Assembly (NCBI RefSeq): GCF_000373485.1
Contig: NZ_KB891585.1
Location: 547,861 to 611,860 of the forward strand
Length of the DNA: 64,000 bases
Direction: 5' to 3'
Origin: Dasania marina DSM 21967
GTDB lineage: Bacteria; Pseudomonadota; Gammaproteobacteria; Pseudomonadales; Dasaniaceae
Under the pieces are notes generated by a model that saw only the letters and a program-made list of their open reading frames with translations, was not told where the DNA came from and did no database searches. Of the stretch, positions 4,457 through 59,090 are shown piece after piece. Position numbers and translations under genes: made by a program. The first letter of the stretch is position 1, and each line of letters opens with the position of its first letter.

Positions 4457-5074
4457 TTATTCCGGCACCTCAAAAAAATCTACTACGCCGGTTTCTAAAG
4501 AATACTCCGCACCCACGATCATCAAATCGTCGTTGCGTATTAAATCCTCTAATATTTCAGAGCCATGGCGCAACTGCTGCACCGAAGCTTCTATATTGGC
4601 CCTTACCGCAAAATCTAAAAACTCGCGCTCATCACAGCCCTGCCTTTTGTTGAGTAGAGGCTCTACCACCGGCTTGATACGATTAACAATAGAGCGCAGG
4701 TTTTTTGAGCGTATATCTACCGGCAAATCTAATTGATCAATAGTCGCTTTCACGGCGCCACAATCAGAATGGCCTAACACTATCACTAAACGCGTACCAA
4801 ACTGCTCGGCGGCAAACTCCACGCTACCGATACCAGAAGGCGCAACGATATTGCCCGCAACTCTAATCACAAATAAGTCACCCAAGCCATGATCAAAAAT
4901 AATTTCGGCGGGCGCGCGCGAGTCGGAACAGCCCAATACTATCGCGAAGGGTGCCTGCCCACCCACTAACTCATTGCGACGATTAATGGTGGACATTTTG
5001 GCTCTATCATCATCACTGGTAAAACGTTGATTACCCTCTTTTAAGCGAGTTAGTGCCTCTAGTGCTGTAATCAT
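4457..5074 (-). CDS. can: Beta-class carbonic anhydrase
   Basis: This 205-residue cytoplasmic zinc enzyme hydrates CO2 to bicarbonate. The zinc and catalytic residues are in place: C49 and D51-R53 in CSDSRAP, and H102 with C105 in HSDCGAVKA. Length is normal for the bacterial beta class (CynT/Can). The C-terminus (EYSLETGVVDFF) matches the family's final strand. It is the last gene of a same-strand series with a channel-like gene and nhaA, 152 bases after the channel gene, so it may have its own promoter. Together with NhaA the context suggests pH and ion homeostasis, which is inference. Can and CynT types cannot be separated from sequence alone. Confidence 0.93.
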   Translation of the reverse strand: MITALEALTRLKEGNQRFTSDDDRAKMSTINRRNELVGGQAPFAIVLGCSDSRAPAEIIFDHGLGDLFVIRVAGNIVAPSGIGSVEFAAEQFGTRLVIVLGHSDCGAVKATIDQLDLPVDIRSKNLRSIVNRIKPVVEPLLNKRQGCDEREFLDFAVRANIEASVQQLRHGSEILEDLIRNDDLMIVGAEYSLETGVVDFFEVPE

Positions 5075-56065: not shown

Positions 56066-56156
56066 CTAGACACTCCTTTCAGTCGCGGGGCTCTACCGGT
56101 GCATACCGGTATCCAGAACCTACTACCCTGTCATGCCGGCGAACGCCGGTATCCAG
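56066..56156. repeat. REP-like dispersed repeat units
   Basis: Two units ending CCGGTATCCAG: one begins CACTCCTTTCAGTCGCGGGG (56070-56116), the other GTCATGCCGGCGAACGCCGG (56130-56156). Related units are at 19572-19625 and, inverted, at 59028-59090. Confidence 0.8.
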
Positions 56157-56195
56157 TGCTTTTCTTAATTAATAATTTGTTATTCGAGCGAGGTT

Positions 56196-56427
56196 TCGCC
56201 TTGCCGGGCGATAAGGGCACCCCTACTTCATTCGGCACATCCATGTGCCTCACCTAAAGGCAGCACTTCGTGCTGTGCAAATTGGCTATCCTGCCAATTT
56301 GTCGTCGTCGGCTACGCTCCTGTTATTGACAAGTAAGCCTGCGCTACTCACAAATTTCGCCTAGGGCGGAATTTGGACGCCAGCTTTATCATGGCGCCCG
56401 AAGGGTGAAAATACGCTTTGCGTATTT
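56196..56427. repeat. Series of six consecutive hairpins
   Basis: Perfect or near-perfect stems follow one another: TCGCC/GGCGA (56196-56211), GGCACAT/ATGTGCC (56234-56249), CAGCAC/GTGCTG (56261-56275), AAATTGGC/GCCAATTT (56279-56300), CAAATTTCGCC/GGCGGAATTTG with one wobble (56351-56375) and AAATACGC/GCGTATTT (56409-56427). Sequences differ, but spacing and size are similar. Confidence 0.85.
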
Positions 56428-56432
56428 GAATC

Positions 56433-56571
56433 ACAATTTAACGGCCGCTGCGGAACTCACCTTTTGAAGATACTCAATCTTCAAAAGGCTTAAACAGTCC
56501 TCGCTACTTCGTGCCGTTAAATTCCTCCGTTGCTCGGCGACTCCCAAGGGGAATCTGGGTGCTTCGTAGAG
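56433..56571 (+). repeat. Structured inverted repeat, copy 1
   Basis: About 139 bases, repeated in inverse orientation at 58729-58867. Outer arms AATTTAACGGC (56435-56445) and GCCGTTAAATT (56513-56523) are perfect complements. An inner hairpin CCTTTTGAAGA/TCTTCAAAAGG has loop TACTCAA (56460-56488). ATTTAAC and GTTAAAT fit the attC R-box consensus sequences RYYYAAC and GTTRRRY. Confidence 0.85.
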
Positions 56572-56781
56572 GGTAAGTGCCAAAGTGTTAGAACCGTGAA
56601 TAATTTACAAGAAAACAGATAGGCACTGGTGTTTGAACCTGTGTATATTTATGTATTGATGTACGGATATAGGCTTTGTGTATAGCTCTAGGCATAAAGT
56701 TTAAATCTGGCCATTCTCGTTAATAAAACTGTTATGTATCAACGTCGTAACTAGAGTTTTGGCACTTTCCAGAGAAATCTA

Positions 56782-57486
56782 ATGAATTGGCAAAATTTAA
56801 TTAAATATTCCAGCGTACAGTTAAGAAAACTGGATGAACAAGGCGCGCCCTGTGGTATAGGTTCAGGCTGTCTATTAGATTTTAAACAACAACGATTCTT
56901 GATTACAGTTTTTCATGTTGCAGAGAAATCATCAGATTGGTGCGCTCAAATAAAGTTCAATGAAGATATTCAACAAATAGAAGTCCTCTTTTTAAATGAA
57001 TTTAGTTTTATTGGTGATTTTAGTTCCGACAAGAAATCTATCAAAGATGTTGAATTTTCTTTTCACCCTGTAAGGCCTGACTTTAAGTGTTATTTCCATA
57101 ATAGAGATTGGCGAGGAGATACTTTAGAAATTACAGAAAGACCTGTTCTCAGTACAGCTGATATTGGCGAGCCTAATAAACTAACAAAATATGGTTTTTC
57201 AGGCGATATTAGGCCAGAGCTTATTCCAGACCAAAATGCATTTATAACAGATCATCACATTTATCATGGTTTAGAATACGATCGGACTGAAAATGATCTA
57301 CACTATTTTAAAATGCCAGAAGATCATCCAGGGCATGACTTCTTTCAAGGGTGTAGCGGTGCTCCAATTATTGGAGAAGATGGAAAAGTTGTTAGCTTGG
57401 TAAGTGGTGGTTCACTTGAAACAAATGAAATATATGGCAACAACTTGGCTAAATGTATAAGAACATTAGATCGGTTTATAAAATAA
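56782..57486 (+). CDS. Trypsin-like serine peptidase domain protein
   Basis: A 234-residue protein without signal peptide or membrane segment. The trypsin-like catalytic triad is recognisable: H45 in FLITVFHVAE (family TAxHV), D89 in KDVEFSF, and S192 in FFQGCSGAPIIGEDGKVVSLVSGG (GxSGAP). The early GIGSGCLL matches the first core strand. No PDZ domain is present. The gene is A+T-rich compared with the housekeeping genes around it and is followed five bases later by an attC-like site, so it may be a cassette gene. Such cytoplasmic trypsin-like domains occur in defence and signalling proteins, but no specific role can be given. Confidence 0.78.
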   Translation: MNWQNLIKYSSVQLRKLDEQGAPCGIGSGCLLDFKQQRFLITVFHVAEKSSDWCAQIKFNEDIQQIEVLFLNEFSFIGDFSSDKKSIKDVEFSFHPVRPDFKCYFHNRDWRGDTLEITERPVLSTADIGEPNKLTKYGFSGDIRPELIPDQNAFITDHHIYHGLEYDRTENDLHYFKMPEDHPGHDFFQGCSGAPIIGEDGKVVSLVSGGSLETNEIYGNNLAKCIRTLDRFIK

Positions 57487-57491
57487 ATAAT

Positions 57492-57575
57492 ACATAACAA
57501 GCGCAGGCTGACGGAACACAGGGACGTCGCTTTGCTCCTAGAAGCTCCCTGCTTCCGCAGCTGCGAGCGTTAGGC
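57492..57575 (+). other. attC-like integron recombination site
   Basis: The 84-base site runs from ACATAAC (57492-57498, RYYYAAC with one mismatch) to GTTAGGC (57569-57575, perfect GTTRRRY). Between them GCTG (57507-57510) pairs with CAGC (57558-57561), CGGAA (57512-57516) with TTCCG (57553-57557), and CAGGGA (57519-57524) with TCCCTG (57546-57551). Unpaired bases at G57506 and A57511 are like the extrahelical bases of attC. It directly follows one ORF stop and the next ORF starts 10 bases after the core, the normal cassette layout. Confidence 0.7.
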
Positions 57576-57585
57576 ACCCAATCGA

Positions 57586-58185
57586 ATGACTGAGAAAATA
57601 ACGAAAATTGAGGCAGCCCAACGGCAATTAATCACCGCTATTGAATTATTTCTTAGAGGGGGGGAGCCTGTGTCGGTGTATAGTTTGGCAACTAATGCTT
57701 GGGAAGTCATAGATGCCTTATGCACCAAAGAAGGCATCGATAGCCTTTCCGATGAAACCAGAGAGAATATAACCACTGGGAGTGAGTTAAAGAAAGATCT
57801 AATTAATAGCCCTTATAGAAATTTCTTCAAACACGCGGATCGTGATCCAGACTCTGTGCTTGAAGGCTTCAGCGATTTAGAAAATGACCATATAATTTTC
57901 CTTTCTGTTGAAGATTATATTCGTCTAAATAAGAAGTCACCGGTCGAGTTACAGGTCTATCAGCTATGGTACTTGTCGATAAATATCGACAAAGTAGCTC
58001 ATGAGGCACTGGCTGATATTCTGGCAGCAACTGAAGTCATGTTCCCATCTATTAAAGAGCAAAATAGGGAGCGACAAAAGTCTATGGCTTTGCAAGCAAT
58101 AACTGACGCATATGGAGACAGAGAGCTTAATGATAGTCCAGAAGTTGAAAAAGCATATCACCGGCTATTTGAGCCAAGCGCCTAA
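57586..58185 (+). CDS. Hypothetical protein, HEPN-like helical region
   Basis: This 199-residue, mostly helical soluble protein is not assigned to a named family. The N-terminal part (EAAQRQLITAIELFLRGGEPVSVYSLATNAWEVIDALC) looks like the first helices of a HEPN-type bundle, and R78-N-F-F-K-H83 (SPYRNFFKHADRDPD) fits the R-x4-6-H motif of HEPN RNases. HEPN identity is inference. The ATG lies 10 bases after the attC-like core with no clear ribosome site, as is usual for cassette genes. No second attC is visible after it. Confidence 0.7.
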   Translation: MTEKITKIEAAQRQLITAIELFLRGGEPVSVYSLATNAWEVIDALCTKEGIDSLSDETRENITTGSELKKDLINSPYRNFFKHADRDPDSVLEGFSDLENDHIIFLSVEDYIRLNKKSPVELQVYQLWYLSINIDKVAHEALADILAATEVMFPSIKEQNRERQKSMALQAITDAYGDRELNDSPEVEKAYHRLFEPSA

Positions 58186-58286
58186 GGTAATTGGCGGGTA
58201 ATTGGGGTCAGATGAAACTTTGCATTTCGTTCCAGCCTTCCCCAGCAAGCTGACAGCGACCTTCTAATCACGGACCAACGCACATC
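58186..58286. other. Spacer with GGGGTCAGATGAAACTTTGC-type sequence
   Basis: This 101-base spacer contains TTGGGGTCAGATGAAACTTT (near 58203-58222), resembling short sequences often seen beside REP-associated transposase genes. No transposase is present; it may be a remnant junction. Confidence 0.35.
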
Positions 58287-58694
58287 ATGGAAATAAAAAT
58301 AACCACCAACGACAGCATCACCGAACAAGAGGTTATCGACCTATACCAAGCTAACGAATGGTCATCCGCCAACAAGCCTGAAAAACTGTTACCCGCACTA
58401 CGCAACTCTCACACACTGGTAACAGCTAGACTAAATGGTCGATTGATAGGCATAGGCAATGCTATATCTGATGGCCACTTGGTTGTTTACTACCCTCATA
58501 TGCTGGTTCACCCTGAGTACCATGGTAAAGGCATAGGTAAAAAAATGATGGCGGCTATGCAGAGTATATACTCTGAATTTCATCAGCAAATGCTAACCGC
58601 CGATGGCGACGCCATTAATTTTTATAAGGCCTTAGGTTTTGAGCGCGCAGGTAAAACAGAACCTATGTGGATTTACGCAGGCGATGAACATTAA
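58287..58694 (+). CDS. GNAT-family N-acetyltransferase
   Basis: A 135-residue GCN5-related acetyltransferase. The acetyl-CoA-binding motif A region is YPHMLVHPEYHGKGIGKKMMAAM (HGKGIG), followed by DAINFYKALGFERAG, the typical motif B end. It is related to small single-domain GNATs and the substrate is unknown. Small GNATs are frequent integron-cassette cargo, which fits the island context. Copy 2 of the structured repeat begins 34 bases after its stop. Confidence 0.9.
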   Translation: MEIKITTNDSITEQEVIDLYQANEWSSANKPEKLLPALRNSHTLVTARLNGRLIGIGNAISDGHLVVYYPHMLVHPEYHGKGIGKKMMAAMQSIYSEFHQQMLTADGDAINFYKALGFERAGKTEPMWIYAGDEH

Positions 58695-58728
58695 GTCGTA
58701 GCGGCAACCACGCTTCTAACAAAACCAT

Positions 58729-58867
58729 CTACGAAGCACCCAGATTCCCCTTGGGAGTCGCCGAGCAACGGAGGAATTTTACGGCACGAAGTAGCGAGGA
58801 CTGTCTGAGTGCAAAAACGATTGAGTATCGTTTTTGTGCGAGTTCCGCAGCGGCCGTTAAATTGTGA
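58729..58867 (-). repeat. Structured inverted repeat, copy 2
   Basis: Read on the minus strand this is about 90% like copy 1 over both flanks (CACAATTTAACGGCCGCTGC at one end, GGGTGCTTCGTAGA at the other). The inner hairpin (58812-58836) has the same loop TACTCAA and the same closing bases but an otherwise different stem, CAAAAACGA/TCGTTTTTG. The outer arm is changed from GTTAAAT to GTAAAAT. Confidence 0.85.
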
Positions 58868-58916
58868 GTAGCACAGGGAACCCGAAGGGCGACGGACTAG
58901 GGGTGCCCTTTCTTTT

Positions 58917-58968
58917 GGTTCCGTTTTCTTTGGGCAAACAAAGAAAATGAACCCGCCCAGCTGGGCGG
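58917..58968. repeat. Long hairpin followed by a 16-base palindrome
   Basis: The stem at 58917-58953 has nine perfect A/T-rich pairs plus imperfect outer pairs around a GGCAAA loop. CCGCCCAG/CTGGGCGG follows immediately at 58953-58968. Similar CTTTGGGCAAACAAAG motifs are familiar in multi-copy gammaproteobacterial intergenic repeats. Confidence 0.8.
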
Positions 58969-59027
58969 AACCCAGCAATCAACTTACTACGATAACCAAA
59001 AAAATAAATACAAAAAACCAAAAAAAC

Positions 59028-59090
59028 TGGATACCGGCCTTCGCCGGCAGAGCCTGCCCCGCGACTGAAAGGAGTGCCTTGGGTATGACA
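59028..59090 (-). repeat. REP-like dispersed repeat unit, inverted
   Basis: On the minus strand it runs GTCATACCCAAGGC, CACTCCTTTCAGTCGCGGGG, then GCCGGCGAAGGCCGG and TATCCAG, matching the units at 56066-56156 in opposite orientation. Confidence 0.8.

Follow-up and report, generated by a model that had tools for sequence, protein, structure and literature searches.

The accessory island analysed here is probably an integrase-free integron dock, at which the integron integrase encoded on contig C6 of the same genome would act in trans to integrate and exchange cassettes at G^TT. It lies in the window, a 64,000-nucleotide stretch (C11:547861-611860) of the 4.1-Mb draft genome of Dasania marina DSM 21967 (G000). 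The leader at 56570-56730 would carry an attI-type site and, by prediction, probably the promoter of the array, and the protease-like gene with its attC would be the current first cassette. The dock would sit between the two members of an inward-facing pair of structured repeats, and recombination between the inverted copies could flip the interior, as is seen between two species. The second species is the sister Dasania sp. GY-MA-18 (G001), and L-numbers denote loci examined outside or around the window. The Dasania sample consists of two genomes, both drafts, with integrase genes near contig ends. The labels mdh, aconitase, hisA, rlmL, polA and metG are assumptions made on the appearance of the translated proteins rather than through family searches, and assignments of the same kind are the LexA box, the IS1182 label and the integron crossover core G^TTRRRY.

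Organization of the island

The features of the island and its borders are as follows.

56068..56091, no strand: outer inverted repeat, distal to the structured repeat (partner 59056..59079, 96% complementary)
about 56193..56569, plus strand: left structured repeat, long form with an extra hairpin module, GTAG end inward; ends by comparison with other copies
56460..56488, plus strand: swapped hairpin of the left copy, stems 56460-56471/56477-56488
56570..56730, plus strand: leader with attI-like site and promoter-like matches (model R1 match C11:604432-604593)
56731..56737, plus strand: putative crossover core G^TTATGT, start of cassette 1, from junction comparison
56731..57568, plus strand: cassette 1, own start and attC R'' complementary at 9/9 positions
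56782..57486, plus strand: 234-aa ORF, probable chymotrypsin-type serine protease (FHV and GCSGAP motifs, by eye)
57490..57575, plus strand: attC of cassette 1, R'' ATACATAAC to R' GTTAGGC; the bottom strand folds at -36 kcal/mol
57586..58185, plus strand: 199-aa ORF, second cassette-like unit, HEPN-like solely by an R-x4-H motif seen by eye
58177..58220, plus strand: possible truncated attC start, then GGGGTCAGATGAAACTTTG, as suggested by the sequence
58287..58694, plus strand: GNAT acetyltransferase gene (PF13508, E 2e-13), with a remnant in the sister species' dock
58729..58983, minus strand: right structured repeat, GTAG end inward (alignment row L021:6590-6844)
58812..58836, minus strand: swapped hairpin of the right copy, read from the sequence and the copy alignment
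59056..59079, no strand: partner of the outer inverted repeat 56068-56091, 96% complementary

The initial annotation had described inverse copies of a repeat of about 139 bases on both sides of the island, with a hairpin whose stem was swapped while its loop and closing pairs were kept. Both arm pairs are present in inverted orientation, 56489-56574/58724-58809 being 95% and 56431-56479/58819-58867 being 84% complementary, and the hairpin stem reads CCTTTTGAAGA in the left copy and CAAAAACGA in the right, with identical loop and closing pairs. The repeat itself holds, but not its length, as the left copy spans about 56193-56569 and the right one 58729-58983. The left copy contains an additional hairpin module of about 95 nt that is missing from the right copy, and in the copy alignment a second, outer hairpin is likewise stem-swapped. 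Used as a query, the left copy finds 19 matches in the G000 genome, itself included. In some repeat copies, the module of about 95 nt stands directly after an ACTC-like site (window 56346-56430; L020 3462-3650), and it occurs at two different positions among the copies, as if itself mobile.

Between the repeat copies, no match to a Pfam or NCBIfam family was found for the 234-aa protease-like ORF, for which the match to LmuA is weak (E 9.7e-7, no stretch passing) and the matches to serine proteases of the PDB are weak too (best E 0.0093). Family searches gave no match for the 199-aa ORF. Possible truncated attC starts, each followed by GGGRTCAGATGAAACTTTG, are seen in the window (58177-58220) and in L010 (about 4885-4960), and the GGGRTCAGATGAAACTTTG of both resembles sequence beside a Y1 transposase gene (L022).

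The leader as a candidate attI

In bracketed docks, a leader some 160 nt long is found beyond the GTAG end of one repeat copy. It lies upstream of the cargo, in the same direction, and is common to 11 dock loci of the two genomes. The dock leaders end in a common core, with the consensus ...TTAATAAAACTG^TTA, beyond which the sequence differs; we take this junction to be the integron crossover. An attI matrix was built from five dock cores, leaving out the integrase-linked sites, and was used to score 751,508 positions. The attI linked to the C6 integrase of G000 came out at rank 2 of 751,508 with a score of 25.7, the next score being 16.2 and rank 1 being a second fetch of a training site. With the same matrix, the integrase-linked attI of G001 reached only rank 11 (score 13.8), and an earlier ungapped 36-nt leader matrix, built from other docks, scored both integrase-linked attIs below 8 bits. 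The leader is called a candidate attI by resemblance and junction. Three promoter-like matches are found in the window leader, against 0.7 +/- 0.8 in shuffles, all being consensus matches only.

A cassette-capturing structured element had been suggested for the island. The capture of cassettes is retained here, but the site is not the repeat: on the sequence comparison, capture appears to take place at the attI-like leader between the repeat copies.

The cassette signature

In an integron cassette, the R'' box of the attC complements the bases with which that cassette opens. For the protease-like unit, which starts with GTTATGTAT and whose attC begins with ATACATAAC, the two are complementary at 9/9 positions; this full complementarity of R'' to the start of the unit marks it as an integron cassette. 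The attC-like site that had been noticed in the island can thus be placed at 57490..57575. An attC scan that demands complementarity of R'' and R' misses this site, and the match of R'' to the unit's own start was used instead. The attC of cassette 1 is single-copy in the G000 genome.

Under a strict form of the R''/own-start comparison, 10 of 18 sites pass (9/16 docks and 1/2 integrase-linked attIs), against 13 of 306 mismatched pairings. The eight failures are mdh of G001, hisA of G000, L059, L060, both rlmL docks, L198 and the integrase-linked attI of G001. At mdh of G001, the first attC matches at 7/9 positions and the second cassette at 9/9, while at hisA of G000 the attC is truncated. 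Short arrays also occur: the L062 dock holds three cassettes, and G514, a single-contig genome from another family, has four chained cassettes with R'' matches of 8, 9, 9 and 8 of 9. Among 240 random GTT starts in the G514 locus, used as a control, 11 gave one link and one gave two or more. Neither an intI (best E 0.68) nor the structured repeat was found in the 9-kb dock stretch of G514.

Docks across genomes

The leader model R1 has ten matches in G000 and 13 in G001, and none in eight other genomes of the family (Spongiibacteraceae). Six docks were counted in G000 (mdh, which is the window, hisA, rlmL, L198, L199 and polA) and 11 in G001 (mdh, hisA, rlmL, L059, L060, L062, L080, polA, L200, L201 and L202), of which L198 and the rlmL docks were counted on the leader alone, with no attC passing. 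The count leaves out L203, where no core was seen, the opposite-strand matches at C15 and C20, and the G000 matches at C1:680836, C1:691742 and C11:180806. At the level of the order, 5 of 145 genomes match R1, both Dasania included. In the matches examined there (L213-L216), L214 of G514 is the sole clear dock, L213 has its core at a contig end, and no dock was confirmed at L215 or L216.

Of the 17 Dasania docks, eight have repeats in inverse orientation to their left and right, namely L059, L060 and, in each species, the mdh, hisA and rlmL docks; some of these flanking repeats are partial copies. At L062, one flank has a full repeat, and a fragment can be made out by eye on the opposite flank.

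A small gene (M..IKTLKPG...AVRYRR...TTVELIVDER) was seen by eye just upstream of leader matches in four genomes (L199 2289-2597; L200 2353-2784; L213 1167-1514; L216 1594-2019).

Ten dock proteins were scanned, and five of them pass the Pfam cut-off, as TerC, SIR2-like, TIR/SEFIR, HEPN and GIY-YIG. The SIR2-like, TIR/SEFIR and HEPN cargo lies at L080 1636-2565, L201 4118-5113 and L010 4280-4879. A number of these domains commonly occur in phage-defence proteins.

Exchange of cassettes at fixed loci

At mdh, hisA and rlmL, the flanks are syntenic on both sides between the two species and the first gene differs. As first gene, mdh has the protease-like ORF in one species and a 177-aa ORF in the other; at hisA, a HEPN protein (PF05168) in one faces a GIY-YIG protein (PF01541) in the other, and the two rlmL ORFs measure 148 and 200 aa. 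At polA (L204/L081) and in the L199/L200 pair, the docks have their upstream flank in common, again with different first genes. In four orthologous dock pairs, the last 120 nt of the leader are 66-90% identical and the 120 nt after the core 50-63%, the background identity having a mean of 56% and a maximum of 65%. In these alignments, similarity falls to background after G^TT in the four tested pairs, weakly at rlmL, where the values are 66% before versus 62% after the core and the G000 core reads GCT. The hisA pair stands outside this comparison, the hisA leader of G001 having lost its core.

These boundaries bear on a quite improbable alternative, in which cassettes landed at unrelated attG-type sites or through homologous recombination between dispersed repeats, the leader being a travelling promoter. 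Insertion at attG has been published, as cited in PMC12901181, and the repeats are dispersed and alike. Against this, the leader is retained where the cassette has been replaced, similarity stops at G^TT rather than at the repeat, the leader resembles a true attI, and docks without repeats exist.

At the mdh dock, the interior is inverted relative to the flanks between the two species, and the GNAT remnant lies on the other side, an arrangement that fits recombination between the inverted repeats. The initial annotation had advised comparing strains for presence or absence of the island with clean ends; no clean empty site of a bracketed dock was found for L059 and L060, which were sought in G000, where their flanks are not together.

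The integron integrase

The integron integrase of G000 is encoded on contig C6 (TIGR02249, 401.9 bits against a cut-off of 265), and the one of G001 is 50% identical to it. In a tblastn search with both integrases, no intI remnant was found in the 17 dock loci (best E 1.6), and none of these loci has an integrase at the site, as a complete integron would. The docks might be the remains of several complete integrons that lost intI, in other words ordinary CALINs in which an attI was left behind and exchange has ceased. This explanation is unlikely, although loss of intI is one of the CALIN origins proposed in PMC8618304 and several docks have decayed cores or attCs. The missing intI remnants speak against it, as do homologous leaders numbering at least 6 per genome in G000 and at least 11 in G001, and first genes that differ at five orthologous docks, from which it follows that exchange continued after the docks were in place.

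LexA-box-like sequences lie just upstream of both intI genes (L024 and L091, reverse strand). In three arrays, TTGAGGCTGTAGAAAAACT follows the attC (L024 reverse strand about 210-300, L199 about 3690 and L200 about 5075), and in L024 it leads into a transposase-like frame that is presumably IS1182-like.

Fold and distribution of the structured repeat

Selection on structure had been proposed from the two window copies. For 23 full-length copies from both Dasania genomes, aligned and folded with RNAalifold, 50 pairs are predicted, and both sides have changed in 24 of them. Paired cells make up 94.6%, compared with 81.5 +/- 0.7% in 500 shuffles and 37-51% in slid controls; covariation is 0.341 versus 0.120 in shuffles, and none of the 500 shuffles reaches any of five measures, these statistics being favoured by a structure derived from the same alignment and by the relatedness of the copies. 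Stem swaps are found in the loop-conserved hairpin (helix 7) and in the outer hairpin (helix 2). As judged from this covariation, the proposal is borne out, and the repeat fold is under selection.

The ends of the repeat had also been likened to the R boxes of attC sites. The R-box-like arms read TAACGG/CCGTTA in some copies and TAGCGG/CCGCTA in others, and pair 135/211 is AU in 13/23 and GC in 7/23 copies. Because these arms vary and GTT is not kept, so that the AAC/GTT box letters are not conserved across the 23 copies, the repeat is ruled out as an attC.

A covariance-model search of the genome and its relatives, as had been advised, gave matches in 43 of 369 Gammaproteobacteria genomes (G000 included) and 35 of 272 genera, with eight candidates scored per genome, and the repeats often form inward-facing doublets. 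The 42 other genomes were followed up through 29 loci (one per genome) and eight larger stretches, two of which (L206 and L207) are additional sites in genomes already among the 29. A second copy is present in 14 of the 29 loci (one weak, E 0.048), and all 14 are inward-facing inverted partners, 13 of them slightly overlapping or at most about 190 nt apart and one at 1.1 kb (L205). In Dasania, the pairs L020, L083 and L086 have only about 160-290 nt inside. Because of these 14 inward partners and the short Dasania pairs, the inward doublet seems to be a common form of the repeat, and the island a doublet with spacer content. Repeats without docks occur, as do docks without repeats; in the G004 repeat pairs examined, no Dasania-type leader was seen.

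The structured repeat itself could be the mobile or cassette-capturing element, for example as a pair of transposon ends. Its fold is conserved with swapped stems, it is widespread, and inward pairs recur, one of them with 1.1 kb inside. Even so, this is a very remote prospect given that the attC letters are not conserved, that 13 of 14 second copies leave no room for cargo, that the boundary between the species lies at G^TT, and that the ORFs lying between the window copies include no recognisable transposase.

The repeat resembles GTAG-tagged REPs and REPINs in being dispersed and palindromic, with alternative complementary stems and inward (tail-tail) dimers. GTAG-REP families are described in PMC3733652 as dispersed palindromes with alternative complementary stems and tail-tail dimers. 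The repeat, in contrast, is about 250 nt or more with several helices, against units of 20-40 bp. A terminal GTAG is seen in 21 of 23 Dasania copies, and only 3 of 41 matches from other genera have the GTAG end. Its size and the rarity of GTAG outside Dasania therefore speak against membership, as far as sequence features go.

No match to the repeat was found in the phage sequences searched. The one plasmid match, Ilyobacter polytropus pILYOP01, covers the outer hairpin block only; in this Fusobacteriota megaplasmid, the block occurs with AACCAAAGAAAAGGCACCCC at six places (e.g., L089 2999-3051). The 4227 Rfam models gave no match at gathering scores over the window and none at E<=1 over the island. 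GTAG-REPs and REPINs are associated with a RAYT transposase. Movement of the repeat by local Y1 transposases was considered as well and found no support, as the stretches read beside the two Y1 genes of G000 show no repeat. The Y1 gene on C11 has GGGTCAGATAAG-type sequence alongside. A pattern scan of genome contigs returned 44 stretches, 4 in Dasania sp. GY-MA-18 and 40 across many taxa.

Relation to known systems and significance

Like a sedentary chromosomal integron, the dock has an attI-like site, a G^TT junction and attC cassettes, in a genome that encodes an integron integrase; unlike one, the dock is without the integrase, there are several docks per genome, and roughly every second Dasania dock is enclosed by a repeat doublet. 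With CALINs and SALINs, the docks have in common attC cassettes away from intI, and the window, with one whole attC and perhaps one truncated, falls under the description of attC sites lacking a neighbouring integrase. The definitions given in PMC9024848 and PMC12690207 rest on attC sites alone, whereas the dock arrays have a homologous attI-like leader in common. CALINs are described as being mobilised in trans by IntI, with off-target insertion or loss of intI among their origins (PMC12444791, PMC8618304). The nearest published alternative to the docks is attG insertion, in which cassettes are also inserted away from the integron. However, attG sites are described as divergent from classical att sites (PMC12901181), and the docks form a homologous family at conserved loci. 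A literature search, with most subscription papers outside its reach, found neither attI docks dispersed without an integrase nor the structured repeat described. The repeat, present in 43 of 369 Gammaproteobacteria genomes, has no Rfam match, and no known function was found for it.

In a broader and more tentative reading, which may hold but is somewhat doubtful, Dasania would possess a distributed integron, with one integrase serving many scattered attI docks, each with its own promoter, and hence many first cassettes that could be expressed and exchanged simultaneously; the repeat doublets might be the vehicle by which docks were copied in this genus. In integrons as described in PMC9024848, attI lies beside intI and the promoter mainly serves the nearest cassettes. 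If the docks are real, this limit to the nearest cassettes would be lifted, and some arrays filed as integrase-less would be explained.
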